From positions 62,001 to 126,000 of the forward strand of contig JAQUOT010000001.1 of the NCBI GenBank assembly GCA_028716945.1: 64,000 nt of DNA, read 5' to 3'. Position 1 is the stretch's first letter; each line of letters starts with the position of its first letter. Below are positions 14,618 to 60,858 of the stretch, piece by piece. The position numbers were made by a program, and so were the translations under genes. This DNA comes from Candidatus Nanoarchaeia archaeon (lineage in GTDB: Archaea > Nanobdellota > Nanobdellia > SCGC-AAA011-G17 > JAFCDX01). A model generated the notes under the pieces. That model was not told the DNA's origin. It saw nothing but the letters and a program-made list of their open reading frames with translations, and searched no databases.

Positions 14618-17600
14618 ATGTTTAAGTTATTTGGAAAAAAAGAGGTAGATAAAAAAGTAGATAGTTCTATAAAAGAAGAGACTCTTTTCAAAATAAATCG
14701 TATAGAGAAACTTCCGGTATTACCTGATTTTCCAAACAAAGAAAAAATTGATATTCAATATCCTTTAATCGAACCTTATGCTTCTGTTCATATTCATTGG
14801 GATCCAAAAGAAGGCGATGTTATTTATGAAGTAATAGAACCAAAATTAGATGATAGAGAAAAAGAAGTTCTAAAAATATTAGAAAATGGAGTAAAAGAAT
14901 TCATCAATGTTAGTTTTATTAGTATTAAAAAAGGAGAAGCAGTTATTGAATATTTAGAAAGAAATATTAAAACTTTATTAAAAGAATTAGGATTAAAAAT
15001 TTCTAATGATACTTTTTTAAAAATAATGTATTATGTTTATAGAGATTTCGTTGGTATGAATGAGATTGAACCTTTATTATGTGATTATTTCATAGAAGAT
15101 ATTGAATGCAATGGAATAAAAAGTCCAGTTTATATAGTGCATAGAAAATACAGAAATTTAAGATCAAATATTACATTTAATGAATTTCCATATTTAATTT
15201 CTTTTGTAGAAAAATTAGCACAAAAAGCAGGAAGATATGTTTCTTATTCAAATCCAATTTTAGATGGATCTTTACCAGATGGGAGCGTAGAATATAATGA
15301 ACCTTTTATTTACAAAGAAAATGGAACAATTAAGATTTCAAAAATTGGAGCTTTCATAGACAAATATTATAATAAAAATGAATCAAATATTCCAAAAAAA
15401 AGTTTTAATTTAGAAGTTCCTGTTTTTGATGAAAAATATAAAATTAAATGGGAATCTGCAGATTATGTATATAGACATAAAACAAAAGATTCTTTATTTA
15501 AAATAAATCTTGAAACTGGAAAGGAAATAACTTTATCTAGTTCTCATAGTGTCTTTGTTCTTAAAGATAACGGTATTAATACTCTAAAAACAACTGAAAT
15601 TAAAGAAGGGGATTATGTTGTAATACCCACAATAATACCTGAAATTGAACCAATTAAAGAGATAAATTTAGTAGAAAGATTCTTAAAAAGCAACTTAAAA
15701 AATAAAGTTGTAATTAGAAACGTCCCTTCTTATATTTTTAAAGAAAAAGGATTAACAATTAAAGATTATTTAAAAGAAAATTACAAAAAGAAAAATCAAT
15801 CATTTTATGATTTTAAAAACAAAAATATTTTACCTTTAAGTTTATATAATATCTTATCTAATAAAGAACTTAGAAATTGTAAACTAGCTACCTCTTCTCA
15901 TCAAGAAGTTCCTACCTTTTTAAAAATAGATAAAGATTTAATCCGGTTAGTAGGATATTATACTGCTGAGGGATGGCTAACTAAAGTAAAAAATCACCAT
16001 AGAATCCATTTCTGTTTAAATATAAATGAAAAAAAATATATAAATGAAATTTGTAAATCATTTAAAAATTGTTTTAATGTAATTCCCTACTTAGAAAAAG
16101 AATACAAAAATGCCATAAAAATTACAATAAATAGTATACTTATTAAACATATATTTGAAGAAATATTAGAAGTAACAAAATATGCTAAAACTAAAGAAGT
16201 TCCTTGGATAATTTATAATGTTTCTAACAAATTAAAAAAAGAATATATTAAAACTTGGAGTAATGGAGATTATAACTGTACGGCAAGTAAAAAATTAATA
16301 TCGGATTTAAGTTATTTATCTTTATTTAATGAAGATATTTTATCTATTTGTTCAAGAACTAGGAATGGTAAAATAGAAGAAAGGGACATTACTTCCACAG
16401 AATTTTATTCAAATGAAATTATAAGAAATCCCATTAAAAGATATATAGAAATGATTCCAATGGAAATATTTAATCCACTAAATCAAATGCATATTAAATT
16501 AAGAAATAAAAGAATTAGTAAAAAAAGATTATTAGAAACTTTAAACGACATTAGATTCCAGAGATTTGAAAAGTTAAACTCAAATTTACCTAAACAATTT
16601 TTAATAGAATGGAGCAAAAGAGGATTTATTAAAGATAATGAATTAACAATAAAAGGATTAAAAGCATTAAATGAAAAATTAATTGTAGATACTTTAATCA
16701 ATTCAGATTTAGGATTTGCTAAAATTAAAAAAATACAAAAAACAGAATCAAATCATGAATATGTTTATGATATTTCAGTACCTAACTATGAAAATTTTAT
16801 TAGTGGATTAGGAGGGATATTTTGTCATAATAGCAGAGTAAATGCAACGTACACAACAGATATTTCTTCAAAAGGACCCACTTTCACACTTCGTAAATTC
16901 ACTAAAGAGCCATGGAGCCCTGTAAAAATGATTGATATGAGAACAGTAAGCCCAGAAATTTTAGCTTATCTATGGATTTTAATTGAACACGAATTTAATG
17001 TTATGGTTATTGGTGGAACTGGTTCAGGTAAAACAACTTTCTTAAATGGATTAGCCTTTTTTATCCCACCTCAAGCTAGAATAGTTTCAATTGAAGACAC
17101 GAGAGAATTAAATTTAGAACATGAAAATTGGTTACCAAGCGTAGCTAGAGAAGGTATTGGTCTAGCAAATATTGTTGGTCAAAAATATGGAGAAGTTACT
17201 TTATTTGATTTATTAAAAGAATCTTTCAGACAAAGACCAGATTATGTAATTGTAGGAGAAATTAGAGGACAAGAAGCTTTCGTTTTATTCCAGGGAATGA
17301 GCTCAGGACATCCATCAATGGGAACAATGCACGCAAATGATGTAGAAAGTATGATAAAAAGACTTGAAAGTCCTCCAATTAATTTATCTGCAACCTTAGT
17401 TGAAGCTCTTGATGTTGTTTGTGTTATTGGACATGCAAAAGTAAATGGCCAAGATGTAAGAAGAATAAAAATGATTCAAGAAATTATTTCTGTGGGAGAA
17501 TCAGGACAAGCACAAATCAATATTCCATTTAAATGGGATGTTAATACAGATACTTTTTTCTTTAAAACAGATAGTTATACTTTTAAAAAATTAACAGAAG

Positions 17601-17767
17601 AATTTGGATTTGGTAAAGAAAGATTATTAGAAGAATTCCAATTAAGAACGAAACTATTAGTTGCTATGTACAAAACTAAAATTTTTGATTATAAACAAGT
17701 TCAAACAGTAATTAATGAATATGCAAGAAATCCAAAAAAAGTTTTAAAGCAATTCGGCGTAATTTAG
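14618..17767 (+). CDS. Type II/IV secretion (FlaI/TadA-like) ATPase interrupted by an intein
   Basis: 1049 residues, of which 516 are an intein, leaving a 533-residue ATPase. Extein: N-terminal domain (1-222) ending LDGSLPDG, then from Ser739 SRVNATYT..., Walker A GGTGSGKTT (about 799-807), Asp-box SIEDTRELN, Walker B-type VGEIRGQEA and the His-box GTMHAND. It powers assembly of the pilins encoded upstream, as a hexamer on the cytoplasmic face. The intein sits in the conserved DG|SR nucleotide-binding segment, so the enzyme is inactive until splicing. It is followed by two TadC/FlaJ-like subunits. Confidence 0.93.
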   Translation: MFKLFGKKEVDKKVDSSIKEETLFKINRIEKLPVLPDFPNKEKIDIQYPLIEPYASVHIHWDPKEGDVIYEVIEPKLDDREKEVLKILENGVKEFINVSFISIKKGEAVIEYLERNIKTLLKELGLKISNDTFLKIMYYVYRDFVGMNEIEPLLCDYFIEDIECNGIKSPVYIVHRKYRNLRSNITFNEFPYLISFVEKLAQKAGRYVSYSNPILDGSLPDGSVEYNEPFIYKENGTIKISKIGAFIDKYYNKNESNIPKKSFNLEVPVFDEKYKIKWESADYVYRHKTKDSLFKINLETGKEITLSSSHSVFVLKDNGINTLKTTEIKEGDYVVIPTIIPEIEPIKEINLVERFLKSNLKNKVVIRNVPSYIFKEKGLTIKDYLKENYKKKNQSFYDFKNKNILPLSLYNILSNKELRNCKLATSSHQEVPTFLKIDKDLIRLVGYYTAEGWLTKVKNHHRIHFCLNINEKKYINEICKSFKNCFNVIPYLEKEYKNAIKITINSILIKHIFEEILEVTKYAKTKEVPWIIYNVSNKLKKEYIKTWSNGDYNCTASKKLISDLSYLSLFNEDILSICSRTRNGKIEERDITSTEFYSNEIIRNPIKRYIEMIPMEIFNPLNQMHIKLRNKRISKKRLLETLNDIRFQRFEKLNSNLPKQFLIEWSKRGFIKDNELTIKGLKALNEKLIVDTLINSDLGFAKIKKIQKTESNHEYVYDISVPNYENFISGLGGIFCHNSRVNATYTTDISSKGPTFTLRKFTKEPWSPVKMIDMRTVSPEILAYLWILIEHEFNVMVIGGTGSGKTTFLNGLAFFIPPQARIVSIEDTRELNLEHENWLPSVAREGIGLANIVGQKYGEVTLFDLLKESFRQRPDYVIVGEIRGQEAFVLFQGMSSGHPSMGTMHANDVESMIKRLESPPINLSATLVEALDVVCVIGHAKVNGQDVRRIKMIQEIISVGESGQAQINIPFKWDVNTDTFFFKTDSYTFKKLTEEFGFGKERLLEEFQLRTKLLVAMYKTKIFDYKQVQTVINEYARNPKKVLKQFGVI
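15284..16831 (+). other. Intein with LAGLIDADG-type endonuclease domain (residues 223-738)
   Basis: 516 residues from Ser223 to Asn738, followed by Ser739. Block A begins SVEYNEPFIY, with Ser as nucleophile instead of the common Cys. Block B is LSSSHSVFVL. Endonuclease blocks include VGYYTAEGW and TWSNGDY. Block F is VYDISVPNYENFI and block G ends FCHN, with the penultimate His and terminal Asn. All splicing residues are present, so it should self-excise. In the second endonuclease motif the acidic residue is kept (GDY), so the homing activity may also be intact. Confidence 0.9.
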
Positions 17768-52837: not shown

Positions 52838-54418
52838 TTATTTAAAAAACTCTTCTCTTAAAGATTGTAACATTTTATCATCTCTTTCAGCTTTTTTAAT
52901 ATCATCCCATCTTTCTTTTGGTAATTTCACATACAAATTAAAAACTCTTCTTATACCTTCAAGTTCTTCAGCAGTTAAAGCTCCGTTATTAAAAGCTCCA
53001 TAAATCCTATTGTCTTCTGCCCTCTCTCCTGCAGGAATTAAATTTTTTTCAATACACACTCTTCTTAACTCTGTTCCAGAATATGGTCTAAATGCATTAA
53101 CAATTGTATTATTAGGATGAATTTTTCTGTTTAATTCAATTGTTTTCATTATATCTTCTCTTGTTTCTCCAGGAAAACCAATAATATTATTAGCAGAGAC
53201 CCTTATTTTTGTTTTTTCAAATTCTTTGAAAGCATTAATAATTTGTTCATCAGACATAAAACGTTTTAATAGATTTTTTCTTAGTTCAATACTTCCACTT
53301 TCAACACCCATTGCTACTCCTTCACATCCAGCAGATTCTAAAGCTTCTGCATATCCAGGTTTTACTGTTTCTACTCTTGCTTCTATGAAGAAAGGTAAAT
53401 ATATTCTTTTTTTGTATTGATCTATAAATTCTTTGAATCTATCAGGAGTCATTGATAAGAAACTTTCATCTGTGAAATAAACATAATCTAATCCATGATT
53501 TTTTATTAAATCTTCAACTTCAGAAATAAAAGAAGGTATAGGTTTGTATCTTCTATATGGATATTCTTTTTTTAATTGTTCTTCACTTATACCTGTATGT
53601 TCACTATATTTTTTTATAGATTCTTTATGTTGATATTGGAATACTGGAATGCAACAGAAAGTGCATGAAAAAGGACATCCTCTGCTTAATTCAAAAGCAA
53701 CAGTTCTTACAGCTTTTCCACCCATTCTTTTCCAGAATCTTCTATCATCAAAAATAGAATAATCTGGTGCTAAAAGAGTTTCAAGATTTGTTGGAGGTCT
53801 TCTTAGTCCAGTATTTTCTCCGTAGATAGTATTTCCTGTTGGTAAATCTTCTAAATTTATAACTTCTCCAGATCTGTAAATTTTTCCATCTTTTTTTACA
53901 ATAAGATTTAATATTTTAGTAATATCATATCCTTTTTCTAAAGCAGTTGCTAATTCTGGAAGCATTTCTTCGCATTCCCCTTCACCAATCATATCAATTG
54001 AAGGTTCTTTGAAAACAACTCTTGGAGCAAAAGTAGGATATACTCCCCCAAATATTTTAGGAACAGGTATATCTTGTATTCCTTTTACAAGTTCTAAACC
54101 TTGATCATAGGACATTTCTAAAGAAGAAAAACCAACTAAATCAGGATGATAATCTAAAACTGCTTTTCTAAAATCAGATTTAAGTTCATCCATTGTAACT
54201 GTTTTTCTTTTAACTCCATACTTTTCAAGATCAACAGGAGTAACTTGTCCTAAACTTTCTCTAAAAGAATCTCCAACAGCTTTTCCAGTATCAAAAAAAG
54301 TAGTATCATAAAGTTTTACTTGATGCCCAGCTTTCTTAAGATGTGCAGATAGTAAGGGTATACCAATACCTACTAAACCATCCATTCTATCATTCGGATA
54401 AACTAACATTACTTTCAT
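52838..54418 (-). CDS. Cobalamin-binding-type radical SAM protein
   Basis: 526 residues. B12-binding-like N-terminal domain (VMLVYPNDRMDGLVGIGIPLLSAHL, FGGVYPTFAPRVV) and radical SAM motif CPFSCTFC near residue 250. The C-terminal part (TEMNRKIHPNNTIVNAFRPYSGTEL) is typical of this group. Has its own TATA region before ATG 54418. It stands beside the phosphonate genes on the same strand, with a 45-nt gap. Confidence 0.84.
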   Translation of the reverse strand: MKVMLVYPNDRMDGLVGIGIPLLSAHLKKAGHQVKLYDTTFFDTGKAVGDSFRESLGQVTPVDLEKYGVKRKTVTMDELKSDFRKAVLDYHPDLVGFSSLEMSYDQGLELVKGIQDIPVPKIFGGVYPTFAPRVVFKEPSIDMIGEGECEEMLPELATALEKGYDITKILNLIVKKDGKIYRSGEVINLEDLPTGNTIYGENTGLRRPPTNLETLLAPDYSIFDDRRFWKRMGGKAVRTVAFELSRGCPFSCTFCCIPVFQYQHKESIKKYSEHTGISEEQLKKEYPYRRYKPIPSFISEVEDLIKNHGLDYVYFTDESFLSMTPDRFKEFIDQYKKRIYLPFFIEARVETVKPGYAEALESAGCEGVAMGVESGSIELRKNLLKRFMSDEQIINAFKEFEKTKIRVSANNIIGFPGETREDIMKTIELNRKIHPNNTIVNAFRPYSGTELRRVCIEKNLIPAGERAEDNRIYGAFNNGALTAEELEGIRRVFNLYVKLPKERWDDIKKAERDDKMLQSLREEFFK

Positions 54419-54463: not shown

Positions 54464-55594
54464 TCATTCTAGAGTATTTAAAAGTTTTCTTAAATTTTCT
54501 TCTGTTAATCGTCTAGGATTATTTTTTACTCTTTCTGTATTAAAACCTTCTTTTATTATAATATCTTTATCAAAAACTTTTAATTCTGACAATTTTGTTT
54601 CAAGTCCTGCTTCCTCCATCAAGCTATTAATTTTAGATCTAGCAGATTCTACATCTTTTGAATCTAATAATTTAACAATTTCATTTATTGTTTTTTTAAC
54701 ATAATCAACTCCTCTTTTATCTAAACAATCTTCTTTAGTTACATTTGAATTATAAACTAACATTTCTCCCAGAGTTAGACTTACAGCATGTCCATGAGGT
54801 ATATTAAAACGAGAAGTCAAAGGATAAGATATTGCATGTGAAGCAGTAGTTTTTGTGATGTTAATTGCTTTTCCTGCTAAATGTGCTGCTTTTGCCATTG
54901 CTAATTTTGGATTTCTACGTATATTATTCATAGAATCAGAAAAATTATTTATTATAAGAGAAATTGCTTCTTTAGAATATTTTTTAGATTCTTCTGTAGA
55001 ATTAATATTCCAATAAGATTCAATAGCTTGACCTAAGGCATCCATTCCACAAGAAGCTGCTTCTCTTGGAGATAAAGTTAAAGCTAAATTTGGATCAACA
55101 ATACTATATCTTGGTAATATACTTTCATGAGCAAGAGAATATTTTATTCCATCTATGTAAATAACTGCAAAATGAGTTGATTCACTTCCACTTCCAGCAG
55201 TAGTAGGTATTGCTACAAGTTTTTTAGGTTTGAATATAATTTCATTTTCATTTTTTAAATATTGAACTGGATTTCCTGGTTGAGCTGCTAAAATATTAAT
55301 TAATTTTGCCATATCAATAGCACTTCCTCCTCCAACAGCCACAACTAAATCATAATTATCTTCTTTGAATAATTTTAAACCTTTTTCAAGATCTGATAAT
55401 TTTGGACTTGGAGAGAAATCAGAAAATCTTGTAGTTGAACAATAAGGATTTAAGATTTCTAATTTAGCTTCAGCTCCAGAAACCCTATAAGAATTTTTTC
55501 CTGTAACTAAAAATATTTTTTTAGGTTTCTCAAAAGATAAAATCTCTCTAAATTTATCTATACATCCAAATCCAATATATTCTGTTTGATTCAT
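54464..55594 (-). CDS. Iron-containing alcohol dehydrogenase, probable phosphonoacetaldehyde reductase
   Basis: 376 residues, type III Fe-dependent ADH. NAD-binding GGGSAIDMAKL, substrate segment PTTAGSGSEST, metal ligands in GMDALGQAIES and HAISYPLTSRFNIPHGHAVSL. In phosphonate loci this family reduces phosphonoacetaldehyde to 2-hydroxyethylphosphonate. It starts 0-1 nt after the phosphonopyruvate decarboxylase stop, so the assignment is mostly from context. Confidence 0.85.
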   Translation of the reverse strand: MNQTEYIGFGCIDKFREILSFEKPKKIFLVTGKNSYRVSGAEAKLEILNPYCSTTRFSDFSPSPKLSDLEKGLKLFKEDNYDLVVAVGGGSAIDMAKLINILAAQPGNPVQYLKNENEIIFKPKKLVAIPTTAGSGSESTHFAVIYIDGIKYSLAHESILPRYSIVDPNLALTLSPREAASCGMDALGQAIESYWNINSTEESKKYSKEAISLIINNFSDSMNNIRRNPKLAMAKAAHLAGKAINITKTTASHAISYPLTSRFNIPHGHAVSLTLGEMLVYNSNVTKEDCLDKRGVDYVKKTINEIVKLLDSKDVESARSKINSLMEEAGLETKLSELKVFDKDIIIKEGFNTERVKNNPRRLTEENLRKLLNTLE

Positions 55595-56722
55595 TTAAGC
55601 TTTATTTAAGAATTCCATAAAAGCTTTCTTATTATCTACTGGAGCTATTGTAGGTCTTCCTAAATTTTTCCTCGCTCCTCTTTTTGTTTTTACGATGAGC
55701 ATGTAAGGTCCTTCTAAATCTGTTAAATTTTTTACAGTTTTAATCAAATCTTCTTTTGTTTCTACTACTTTTGCAGATTTATATCCACAAGCTAAAGCCA
55801 TTTTTTCAAAATTGAGAGTTGAAGACGTTGTGGGTTGTCCGCCGGTTGAATCATATGAATTATTATCAAAAATTATATGGTAAAGATTTTTTGGTGAATA
55901 ATATCCGATAGTAGATAGATTTCCAGCACTCATAATTGCTGCTCCATCTCCATCAAAAATTAATATTTTTTTATTTGGTTTTTGAAGTGCAATTTCTGCT
56001 GCAAAAGAAGAAGCTAATCCCATAGAACCAACCATTAAAAAGTCTTTATTATGGCCTTGTTTTAATTCTTCTCTGTATTCAAACAATTCTCTTGAAGCTT
56101 TTCCTGTTGTAGAAACGATTACTTCGCTTCCATTTAAATTATCAATTATAGATTTAATTGCCTCTTCTCTTAATAATTCATAATTTGTTTTTATAGGATT
56201 TTTAGATTTATATTCTTCAAAGGTTCCTTCTTTTACTATTAAAGCAACAGGAGCACTTCTTTTTTCTGCAATTTGTTTCATTTCTTTTATAATTTGTTTA
56301 GCATCTTGTAAATTATCTGGAAGAATTTTATAAGGAATTTCTAAAACATCAAGTAAAGGTAAAGTTATTCTACCCATTTTTTTATGTTGAGGTTCATCGT
56401 GTTTATTTGGTTCTCCTCTCCATCCAATCATTAAAAGCAGAGGTAAATTATATATTTCTGGATCTGCTAGAGAAGTTATTGGATTTACTACATTGCCTAA
56501 ACCAGAATTTTGCATATAAACAACACCAATTTTTCCAGTTGAAGCATGATAACCTGCAGCCCAACCTATTGCTTCTCTTTCAATTGAAACAATTCTATTT
56601 GTAAGACCTTCTTTGTCTGATAAAAATTCCATCCAATCTTTAAATGTTGAATCAGGAACTCCTGTAAAGAAAGTTAATCCATTATCTTCAAAAATATTAT
56701 ATAGATTGTTACAATTAAGCAT
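55595..56722 (-). CDS. ppd: Phosphonopyruvate decarboxylase
   Basis: 375 residues, ThDP-dependent. N-terminal FFTGVPDSTFKDW and SIEREAIGWAAGYHASTG (catalytic Glu), VYMQNSGLGNVVNPITSL, C-terminal FDGDGAAIMSAGNLSTIGYY...FDNNSYDSTGGQPT (ThDP motif GDG...NN). This match is close to known Ppd proteins. It decarboxylates phosphonopyruvate to phosphonoacetaldehyde, making phosphonate formation irreversible. Immediately follows the PEP mutase fusion gene. Confidence 0.93.
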   Translation of the reverse strand: MLNCNNLYNIFEDNGLTFFTGVPDSTFKDWMEFLSDKEGLTNRIVSIEREAIGWAAGYHASTGKIGVVYMQNSGLGNVVNPITSLADPEIYNLPLLLMIGWRGEPNKHDEPQHKKMGRITLPLLDVLEIPYKILPDNLQDAKQIIKEMKQIAEKRSAPVALIVKEGTFEEYKSKNPIKTNYELLREEAIKSIIDNLNGSEVIVSTTGKASRELFEYREELKQGHNKDFLMVGSMGLASSFAAEIALQKPNKKILIFDGDGAAIMSAGNLSTIGYYSPKNLYHIIFDNNSYDSTGGQPTTSSTLNFEKMALACGYKSAKVVETKEDLIKTVKNLTDLEGPYMLIVKTKRGARKNLGRPTIAPVDNKKAFMEFLNKA

Positions 56723-58066
56723 TTAATTTCCTCCAGGAATTAAATTTAAAATTTCCTTGATAGATACACAGTTTTCTTCTGCTTCTTTACCTCTATCACA
56801 AGCTAAAATTAATTCTGCTGTTTTTTTCATAGTAAGATAAGAACTTCTTAACAAATGATTTGCATATATAACAACATTAACTCCCATAGTTTCTAGTTGT
56901 TTTTCAGTAACTTGGCTGTAAGTTGTTGGAACTACGACTAAAGGTTTTTTATTTTCAAATTTAGAATAATGTTCACAAAATTCTAAGATTTCATTTGGTT
57001 CTTTTTCTTTGCTGTGAATCATTATTGCATCTGCGCCTGCTTCAATGTATGCTTTTGCCCTTTTCAGTGCATCTTCCATTCCTTGTTTTAATATTAAACT
57101 CTCAATTCTTGCTATGATCATAAATTCATTTGTAACTTGAGCATTTTTACCTGCAGCAATTTTCTTTGAAAAGTTTTCTATAGTATCTTGTGTTTGTTCT
57201 ACTTCTGTTCCAAATAAAGAATTTTTCTTCAATCCAATTTTATCTTCAATTATAATTGCAGAGATTCCTAATCTTTCAAGAGTTTTTACAGTATAAGGAA
57301 AATGTTCTATAAGTCCACCAGTATCTCCATCTACAATCATTGGTTTAGTGGTTATATCTAAGATTTGATGTATTGTATTTAATCTTGAAGTTAAATCAAC
57401 AAATTCTATGTCTGGTTTTCCTTTTGCGGTTGAATCTGTTAAGCTGCTTATCCATACTCCATCAAATTCTTTTGGTATTTCATCTTTCAAGATTTTAGTA
57501 TTTTCTACAATTAAACCAGTTAAACCATTGTGTGCTTCTAAAAATCTACTCAAAGGTTTTGCATGTAAAAGTCTTTTTAGTTTTCCCATTCTCATTTCAG
57601 GAGTAACTCCTAATTTTTTTACATTATTATTAAGTTGTGTTGAAGAAATTCCTTTTGTGTAAGGAACATCTATAACAGAACCTCCCCATTCTTTTAAAGT
57701 TTGAATTACTCTTTCTCTTACTTCTCTTTGAAAACCTGTTTTCCAATCATCACCATGAATAACATAATCAGGTTTGTATAATTTTAAATTAGGAACATAA
57801 TCCAAAGTATCTTGTGGAACTACTTTCTTTATTCCCTTAAGATTTTCTACAATTACTTTTCTTTGTTCATAAGTTAGATAAGGAAGTCTTTTGTAACTAG
57901 CTATAGCTTTATCTGTTAAAACCCCAACAATTACATCTCCATATTTTTGTGCTTCATTCAAAATGTTCAAATGGCCTGGATGCAGTAAATCTGCACAAAG
58001 TCCCATATAAACTGTTTTGGGTTTTTCAGTATTTTCCTGGTTCAAATTGTTTGACTCTTGTATCAT
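56723..58066 (-). CDS. pepM: Bifunctional cytidylyltransferase-phosphoenolpyruvate phosphomutase
   Basis: 447 residues from ATG 58066, which is preceded by AAGGAG; an earlier in-frame ATG at 58096 would overlap the radical SAM gene more. Domain 1 (about 18-150): nucleotidyltransferase with HPGH, RT-like [12 protein letters not shown] and [10 protein letters not shown]. Domain 2 (about 165-447): PEP mutase with [13 protein letters not shown], the mutase signature, and DGDTGG. The same domain order occurs in Streptomyces Fom1. Mutase makes phosphonopyruvate from PEP; the other domain would cytidylylate a later product such as 2-hydroxyethylphosphonate. Confidence 0.92.
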
Positions 58067-59426
58067 TTTGATTATACTCCTTGTTAAATCTTGCAACTAA
58101 TTCCTGAACTTGTTCTGCTCTAAATTCAGGGGTGTTAATATGACTTAATTTAAAACTGGTTGTTGCATATTTTACATTTCCTTTCATATATCCATTTTTT
58201 TGACATATATCTAATAATTCTGAACCAACCAAAGGATTTGCAGCGAAAAATGAAGCACTATCAAATCCACAACCTTTAACAAAATCATAAGTTTCTTGCA
58301 TTTGTTCTAAAGTTTCTCCTGGTAATCCACAAACACAAAAAGCATGAACTTTAATTTCAAGATCTTGAGCTTTTTTTAATAAAGGTTTAACTTTTTGTAA
58401 ATTCAATGGTTTTTTTACAATATTATCTAAAACATATTGATTTCCACTTTCTACAGCAAAAGTTAACTGATAACATCCAGAAGCTTTCATTTTTTCAAGT
58501 AAATTTTCATCCAGAGCCCAAATAGCAATTCCTTGAGGAGCACACCATTTTAATCCATAATCTTTCATTCCATCAAATATTTTTGCTGCTCTCTTTCTAT
58601 TCAAAGTAATATTATCGTCTGTAATTTGAATTTCATCAATATTATAATTTTCTTTTAATCCTCTTATTTCTTCAATAACATTTTCTGCAGATCTTCCTCT
58701 GTAATGATTTCCCCAGAAGTTTGTTGTTGTACAAAAAATACATCTAGCAGTACATCCCCTAGAAGTTACTAACTGAGCTACTCTTTTACCTTGTGGATAT
58801 GGATTTTGAGGCATATTTATTTTAAAGTATTGTTCCATATCTAATAAGTGCCAAGCTGGTAAAGGTAAAGAATCTAAATCTTTTACATATTGTAAATTTC
58901 TATTAACAATTATCTCATCGCTTCCTTTAAATGCTAATCCTCCAATGTTTGAAACATTTCCACCATTATTCAATTCTTTCATAAGTTGTAAAGTAGGTAA
59001 TTCTCCTTCTCCTAAGATTACAAAATCAAGAGAATCTAATTTTAACATATCTTCTAATGCATAAGTTGGATGAGAACCGCCTGTTAAAGTTATTATTTCT
59101 TCATCAACGTCTTTAACTAATTTTAAAGTATGTGCTGCATTTTCAGCTTGTGTAGAAAAGATACAAGAAACACCTGCAACATCAGGTTTAAATTCATTAA
59201 TTCTTTTTTTAACTTCTTCATCATCTAAACCATATGTAACAAAGTCTCCATTTTCTTTAACATTATGATAACCTTCATTAGCAATATCCATAATTTTTAC
59301 TTGATGTCCTTCTCTTTCTAAAAATCCTGCTAAATATCCCAAACCAATTGGAGTAATACATCTTCTAACATCTTTTTTAAATAGAGTATATCTAGGAGTC
59401 ATCAACATTATTTTTTTCTTATCCAT
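58026..59426 (-). CDS. Cobalamin-binding-type radical SAM protein in the phosphonate operon
   Basis: 466 residues. B12-binding-like N-terminus ([14 protein letters not shown]...[45 protein letters not shown]) and radical SAM motif CTARCIFC near 222-229. Located directly before the PEP mutase gene with a 41-nt overlap of the coding frames. In fosfomycin synthesis the B12 radical SAM protein Fom3 methylates cytidylylated 2-hydroxyethylphosphonate; here a similar step is possible, but methylation of lipid or glycan is equally open. Confidence 0.84.
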
Positions 59427-60040: not shown

Positions 60041-60049
60041 TTTATAAAT
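60041..60049 (+). promoter_or_regulatory. TATA box of the CDP-alcohol transferase gene
   Basis: TTTATAAAT about 34 bases before ATG 60079, with AGGGG (60069-60073) near the start. It divides the divergent phosphonate and transferase transcripts. Confidence 0.45.
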
Positions 60050-60078: not shown

Positions 60079-60858
60079 ATGAAGGAAAAGATAACTCTAG
60101 CTGATTTAAAAAAGGATAGACATGGTAAATGTAAAAATTTACCTATTGAGTTTAAACCTTTAAGTAGAGTCTCTCCTTATGTTTCATATTTCTTTATAAA
60201 ATTCTTGCCCTTTACTCCAAACCAAGTTAGTTTTATGTGGGGTATCCTTGGTTTAATTAGTGTTTTAGTTATGAGTTTTGGAGGATATTGGAATTTATTA
60301 ACTGGAATATTAATTTTTCATCTTTCTATTTTATTAGATTATGTTGATGGAGATATGGCTAGGGCTTTGAAGAAAAAAACCATTGGAGGAACTTATCTTG
60401 ATGCTTTTTTTTCATGGACTTTAAGAGCTCTTTTAATGTTAGGATTAGGAACTGGTCTTTTCAATTATTCTAATAATATTATTTATTACTATTTAGGAAT
60501 TTGGTGTTGTATTTTGCTTCTTATAGACAACTTAACTAAATTAAAAGTACATGAAACTATGGTAAGTCTTGGAAAATATGATCTATTAAAGAAGTTAATC
60601 GATGAACGAGAAGAGAATTATGAAAAAGGACGTAAAGACAGTACAGAAAACTGGAAACAAACAAGTATATTCCAAAAAATAAAATTCTATCTTCCAAGAT
60701 TCTTAACTCCAAATGGAATGTTCTCTTTATTATTCTTCTCTATAATTTTTAATTTCTCACAGTATTACTTAATTTTAATGTCAATTATAGTTCTTCCATT
60801 CTTCATAAGAAATTTCATAGCAATTTATAAGAGAATAGGAAACATAGCTAATAATTAG
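60079..60858 (+). CDS. CDP-alcohol phosphatidyltransferase-like protein with altered fourth Asp
   Basis: 259 residues from ATG 60079 (AGGGG upstream). About six membrane helices. Family signature D1xxD2G1xxAR...G2xxxD3xxxD4: Asp87, Asp90, Gly91, Ala94, Arg95, Gly104, Asp108, but the D4 place is Ser112 (LDAFFSW). D4 is the proposed base in characterised members, so the enzyme may be slow, use another base, or have a different role. Normal members join a CDP-alcohol to a second alcohol in lipid synthesis. Proximity to the phosphonate-activating genes suggests transfer of a phosphonate or another head group. Confidence 0.8.
   Translation: MKEKITLADLKKDRHGKCKNLPIEFKPLSRVSPYVSYFFIKFLPFTPNQVSFMWGILGLISVLVMSFGGYWNLLTGILIFHLSILLDYVDGDMARALKKKTIGGTYLDAFFSWTLRALLMLGLGTGLFNYSNNIIYYYLGIWCCILLLIDNLTKLKVHETMVSLGKYDLLKKLIDEREENYEKGRKDSTENWKQTSIFQKIKFYLPRFLTPNGMFSLLFFSIIFNFSQYYLILMSIIVLPFFIRNFIAIYKRIGNIANN

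Follow-up and report, generated by a model that had tools for sequence, protein, structure and literature searches.

A CDP-alcohol phosphotransferase-fold protein lacking the fourth motif aspartate in an archaeal phosphonate locus

Does the absence of the fourth motif aspartate (D4) from a CDP-alcohol transferase encoded in a phosphonate locus reflect adaptation to a phosphonate substrate, as the original prediction proposed? The eight residues of the D1xxD2G1xxAR...G2xxxD3xxxD4 motif have been termed absolutely conserved and D4 essential, and in characterized enzymes D4 is regarded as the residue that deprotonates the acceptor (PMC4634129); the second metal is also bound by D4 (PMC6506517). 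The premise that D4 is the base in characterized enzymes is borne out by the MtPIPS D93N substitution, which nearly abolished activity although substrate binding was retained (PMC4634129). The protein considered here, P0001, is encoded in a window of 64,000 nucleotides from Candidatus Nanoarchaeia archaeon (contig JAQUOT010000001.1), window meaning the whole stretch of DNA that was analysed. The relevant features are listed in Table 1.

Table 1. Features of the P0001 locus, in window coordinates.
Feature	Position	Strand	Evidence
P0001, CDP-alcohol phosphotransferase-fold membrane protein, 259 aa	60079..60858	+	PF01066, AF2, Foldseek
Motif stretch D1xxD2G1xxAR...G2xxxD3, all intact	60337..60402	+	strict DNA pattern
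T8 homopolymer, last T = first base of Ser112 codon	60405..60412	+	
Codon TCA, Ser112 at the D4 position	60412..60414	+	translation; alignment to 4mnd, 4o6m
PMT-family glycosyltransferase, directly downstream of P0001	60866..62965	+	PF13231, 62.5 bits
Cytidylyltransferase (HYGH) with AbrB-like N-terminal stretch, divergent partner of P0001	59419..59973	-	PF01467, 45.4 bits
B12-binding radical SAM protein, best model Sden_1168 P-methyltransferase	58026..59426	-	NF038361, 365.9 bits (below cutoff 575)
PEP mutase with N-terminal cytidylyltransferase domain, Fom1-like architecture	56723..58096	-	TIGR02320, 408.6 bits (cutoff 319.6)
Phosphonopyruvate decarboxylase	55595..56722	-	TIGR03297, 449.9 bits (cutoff 312.5)
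Iron-containing alcohol dehydrogenase, presumed phosphonoacetaldehyde reductase	54464..55594	-	PF00465
Second B12-binding radical SAM protein of the cluster	52838..54418	-	

The P0001 reading frame is free of stop codons and has an alternative TTG start 30 bases upstream, at 60049. Its translation contains D87, D90, G91, A94, R95, G104, D108 and S112 at the eight motif positions, such that only D4 is not present, as originally described. In phmmer alignments to two solved enzymes (4mnd and 4o6m), the segment from D3 to D4 was ungapped and S112 paired with D4. Moreover, the helix that bears D3 and D4, residues 102–131 of the model, contains no Asp, Glu or His other than D108, which rules out a shifted D4 in P0001. 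The strict D1-to-D3 DNA pattern matched once in the window and in 0 of 100 shuffled versions. P0001 passed the PF01066 gathering cutoff (32.3 bits versus 22), and its AlphaFold2 model, built from 43 sequences, had a mean pLDDT of 92.8. The top PDB match of this model in Foldseek was AF2299 (4q7c, probability 1.00), and PIP synthases were matched as well. P0001 is the sole PF01066 gene of the source genome (0.80 Mb, 97.6% complete), whose size and gene content point to a DPANN-like archaeon. The full PS00379 signature fails because Ser112 stands in the place of the Asp that serves as base and second-metal ligand; thus P0001 belongs to a D4-less branch of the CDP-alcohol phosphotransferase superfamily rather than being a standard member.

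The Ser112 codon touches a run of eight T residues. TCA differs at all three positions from the His codons CAT and CAC and likewise from the Asp codons GAT and GAC. Removal of one T from the run would place CAT (His) at D4 but end the frame three codons later; as the frame is intact, a single homopolymer error is ruled out. An extra T combined with a missing T, such that the true T7-CATTGG was assembled as T8-CATGG, would convert His-Trp into Ser-Trp and restore the downstream frame immediately, and it would give P0001 the same residue as both of its nearest relatives. However, this explanation needs two compensating indels within about 4 bases, the window holds 15 A/T runs of eight yet no obviously frameshifted gene, and ordinary substitutions at about 50% divergence are also enough to explain the codon. 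We therefore regard an assembly artefact masking His as distinctly unlikely.

Only one close orthologue of P0001 was found, a full-length protein from genome G170 with 51% identity, a shared gene cluster and His at D4. Wider scans of genome contigs recovered no close relative of P0001, only distant bacterial members with Asp at D4. For the P0001 gene, a dN of 0.40 and a dS of 2.4, the latter near saturation, suggest purifying selection. A family tree of query-like proteins was computed with the D4 column left out. P0001 and the G170 protein grouped with a support of 100 and a protein from G473, which also has His at D4, joined them at 88. These three belong to a branch of 37 rows in which His predominates (support 93), in a tree whose deeper forks are weak and whose end branches are often long. 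All three loci encode PepM, Ppd, an iron-containing alcohol dehydrogenase and the AbrB-like cytidylyltransferase. The alignment with homologues from phosphonate loci thus returned His, not Asp, at D4 in the nearest pepM-linked relatives. With His in the nearest rows of a His-dominated branch, parsimony favours a change from His to Ser rather than from Asp to Ser in the window lineage, and the ancestral residue was most likely His.

We found that absence of Asp at D4 is common in this phylum. We scanned 279 genomes of the phylum with the strict D1-to-D3 DNA pattern, which leaves out D4 codons ending in G. Among the 150 matches listed, the D4 codon, tallied by eye, specified Asp in 120, Gly in 11, His in 10, Asn in 3, Ser in 2, and Glu, Val, Thr or Ala in 1 each; about 20% of these motif-bearing genes (30/150) therefore have a residue other than Asp. 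Within the query-like family the balance is shifted further, with His in 28 of 62 proteins, Asp in 16, Gly in 6, Asn in 4, Ser and Ile in 2 each, and single occurrences of others. A comparison framed as Ser instead of Asp is consequently misleading, as Asp had already been lost in a large archaeal branch, mostly to His. The loss is also not confined to the archaeal phylum, since seven matches on bacterial plasmids had Asp (4), Gly (2) or Ala (1) at D4. Ala or Gly occupies this position in the bacterial CDP-alcohol transferases of L137 (a Streptomyces fungicidicus plasmid), L139 and L140, where cytidylyltransferase genes lie nearby.

Several relatives depart from the motif in other ways. Many members with His at D4 (L039, L040, L053, L057, L063, L069 and others) also have Glu at D3, which occurs in 11 of the 43 rows of alignment A2; this combination suggests that the two positions changed together at the second metal site. 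A stronger departure still is found in a pepM-linked relative (L136:4480-5295, G205:C48), which is aligned with Gly at D3 and His at D4. A second protein with Ser at D4 (L134:11827-12540, G116:C7) is distantly related to P0001, and the 18 kb fetched around its gene contain no pepM.

The prevalence of non-Asp residues bears directly on the proposed tie to phosphonates. pepM was present in 23 of 371 genomes. Eight genes with the strict motif lie within 10 kb of pepM, and their D4 residues are His, Glu, Asn, Asp, Ser, Gly, Gly and Gly. Phylum-wide, non-Asp D4 was thus enriched near pepM among the listed matches (7/8 versus 23/142 elsewhere; Fisher p = 5e-5), though the genes counted as elsewhere include phospholipid-type enzymes of the ordinary kind. 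Inside the query-like family, in contrast, the fraction was the same with and without pepM (10/13 linked versus 36/49 unlinked; p = 1.0), and independent pairs on the tree, few in number and hence of low power, gave no association between pepM and D4. On the basis of these two within-family tests, a phosphonate-specific loss of D4 was rejected. In addition, the pepM-linked genes of G177 and G279 have the full motif and keep Asp at D4, and most family members with His at D4 lie in stretches without pepM. D4 loss marks a subfamily, not phosphonate. As D4 acts on the acceptor hydroxyl in known mechanisms, a substitution there would in any case implicate the acceptor and not a phosphonate donor. 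The view that D4 was altered to suit a phosphonate substrate has the phylum-wide enrichment in its favour but is very unlikely given the equal fractions inside the family and the retained Asp in G177 and G279.

The gene context is a different matter, as the P0001 locus is a phosphonate locus. The six minus-strand genes of Table 1 make up an operon that lies beside P0001 and diverges from it. The PEP mutase encoded there has the EDKxxxxxNS and HPGH motifs, and an iron-containing alcohol dehydrogenase gene adjoins pepM in G170, G177, G205 and G473 as well. The divergently encoded cytidylyltransferase is conserved in G170 and G473, with similar proteins at L033:5280-5813 and L135:18448-18981. By eye, its N-terminal stretch (QLCITIPKNSGIKVGDVV) resembles AbrB/SpoVT, and the same architecture occurs beside pepM in those two genomes. 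A relative of the PMT-family glycosyltransferase is found near the P0001 orthologue of G170 (L033:7744-9525). Elsewhere in the window, at 14618-17767, a secretion/pilus ATPase of 1049 amino acids appears by eye to be interrupted by an intein, the insert ending in HN before SRVNATY. The original interpretation was accordingly half right: the locus is concerned with phosphonates, but the substitution at D4 is a trait of the family.

The G170 cluster comprises genes for an iron-containing alcohol dehydrogenase, Ppd, PepM, two cytidylyltransferases, the His-type enzyme and a protein of 454 amino acids (L033:3466-4830, G170:C5). The best solved relative of this last protein is methylphosphonate synthase (6b9s, E = 3.5e-78), with hydroxyethylphosphonate dioxygenase a weaker match (1.1e-62). 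Its host is a small archaeon of the same class as the source of the window. No homologue of the 454-residue protein is present in the window genome. This difference suggests different donors, CMP-methylphosphonate in G170 and a donor of the hydroxyethylphosphonate type, perhaps methylated, in the window.

A donor from the cluster is also indicated by what the source genome lacks. Searches for CarS, CdsA/CTP_transf_1 and GGGP synthase gave no match in this 97.6% complete genome, and all three were positive in control archaea. The cell thus seems unable to make its own CDP-archaeol, which makes the CMP-phosphonate produced by the cluster the likeliest donor for P0001. The reverse arrangement deserves consideration, in that a host-derived CDP-lipid could serve as the donor and a phosphonate, for example hydroxyethylphosphonate, could act as the acceptor through its hydroxyl, yielding a phosphonolipid. 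CDP-archaeol is the substrate of characterized archaeal CDP-alcohol enzymes, and small archaea whose lipid pathways are incomplete may obtain lipids from a host. However, the genome is without CarS or CdsA, and the cluster has two cytidylyltransferase domains, one of them fused to PepM; we consider this classical lipid direction improbable.

Our preferred reading, held with slightly less than even confidence, is that P0001 is an active, divergent CDP-alcohol transferase that, lacking a carboxylate at D4, transfers a phosphonate to a surface alcohol. The observations behind this reading are the sequence, the predicted fold, the gene neighbourhood, the spread of D4 residues and the kinship with His-bearing relatives; activity, donor, acceptor and base replacement are the parts that we infer. 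PEP mutase, phosphonopyruvate decarboxylase and the iron-containing alcohol dehydrogenase would make a phosphonate such as 2-hydroxyethylphosphonate, which the cytidylyltransferase domain would activate to the CMP-phosphonate and which a B12 radical SAM enzyme may methylate. As the final step of the pathway, P0001 would pass the phosphonate on from CMP to a hydroxyl group of a glycan or lipid at the surface, with D1 to D3, the AR pair and the two glycines presumably holding the cytidine diphosphate and metal as in the rest of the family. In the ancestry of the protein, the D4 carboxylate would have been lost earlier, within the archaeal branch, mostly to His, which can act as a base, and His would later have given way to Ser in the window lineage. 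Judged from the His bases inside the family, at work in CHPT1 and proposed for CEPT1, His at D4 is a sensible base and Ser is not, and proton removal in P0001 would probably occur via metal-bound water or the acceptor itself.

Without the D4 base and with an impaired second metal site, P0001 could instead have little or no activity and be a non-catalytic or decaying paralogue. The near-inactivity of MtPIPS D93N, which still binds substrate, is in line with such a loss, as is the lack of a visible alternative base in the motif helix. We nevertheless consider it unlikely, as P0001 is the only CDP-alcohol transferase of a small genome, the remaining motif residues are intact, dN/dS is low, and many relatives do without Asp at D4. 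P0001 is therefore taken to be intact and probably an active membrane enzyme.

We know of no activity, substrate or product for any member of the D4-less branch. Extending the preferred reading to the branch as a whole, we tentatively propose that it runs on His or on no carboxylate at this position, and that its pepM-linked members may be the missing transferases that attach CMP-activated phosphonates (methylphosphonate in G170 and, in the window lineage, hydroxyethylphosphonate or its methylated form) to surface glycans or lipids. Motif genes lie beside pepM in 8 of the 18 pepM-containing genomes of the 279-genome set, whereas about 0.2 would be expected at roughly one motif gene per two genomes. 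The main value of the finding lies in the D4-less branch and in its recurring place beside pepM. Absence of D4 from a fifth of the listed motif-bearing genes in one phylum contradicts the rule of absolute conservation (PMC4634129) and constitutes a natural test of which group removes the proton. Phosphonate tailoring after cytidylyl activation has been called enigmatic (PMC6697681), and a CDP-alcohol transferase that recurs beside pepM is a concrete candidate for these steps.

A literature search found no publication naming both CDP-alcohol enzymes and DPANN. The Archaeoglobus enzymes AF2299 and IPCT-DIPPS (4o6m, 4q7c, 4mnd) resemble P0001 in fold (probability 1.00, TM 0.59) and in D1 to D3, G1, AR and G2; P0001 differs from them by Ser for Asp at D4, an identity of only about 15%, and the absence of a fused cytidylyltransferase domain. 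To our knowledge, fosfomycin biosynthesis involves no CDP-alcohol transferase. Fom1, which makes CMP-HEP, has the same domain order as the neighbouring PEP mutase, including EDKxxxxxNS and HxGH (PMC6697681), but the P0001 cluster, unlike the Fom1 system, sits among glycosyltransferases. CHPT1 and CEPT1 are similar in that the presumed P0001 donor is closer to a CDP-headgroup than to a CDP-lipid, and in that a base other than D4 has been proposed there too: His133, immediately after D3, acts together with Glu129 in CHPT1 (PMC10182977), and His155 or His197 is the proposed base of CEPT1 (PMC10156783). Both enzymes keep D4, however, and a His directly after D3 is not found in P0001, which has Ala109 there. 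For MjPSS, the proton is likely taken up by a water molecule that D4 activates (PMC8633023).
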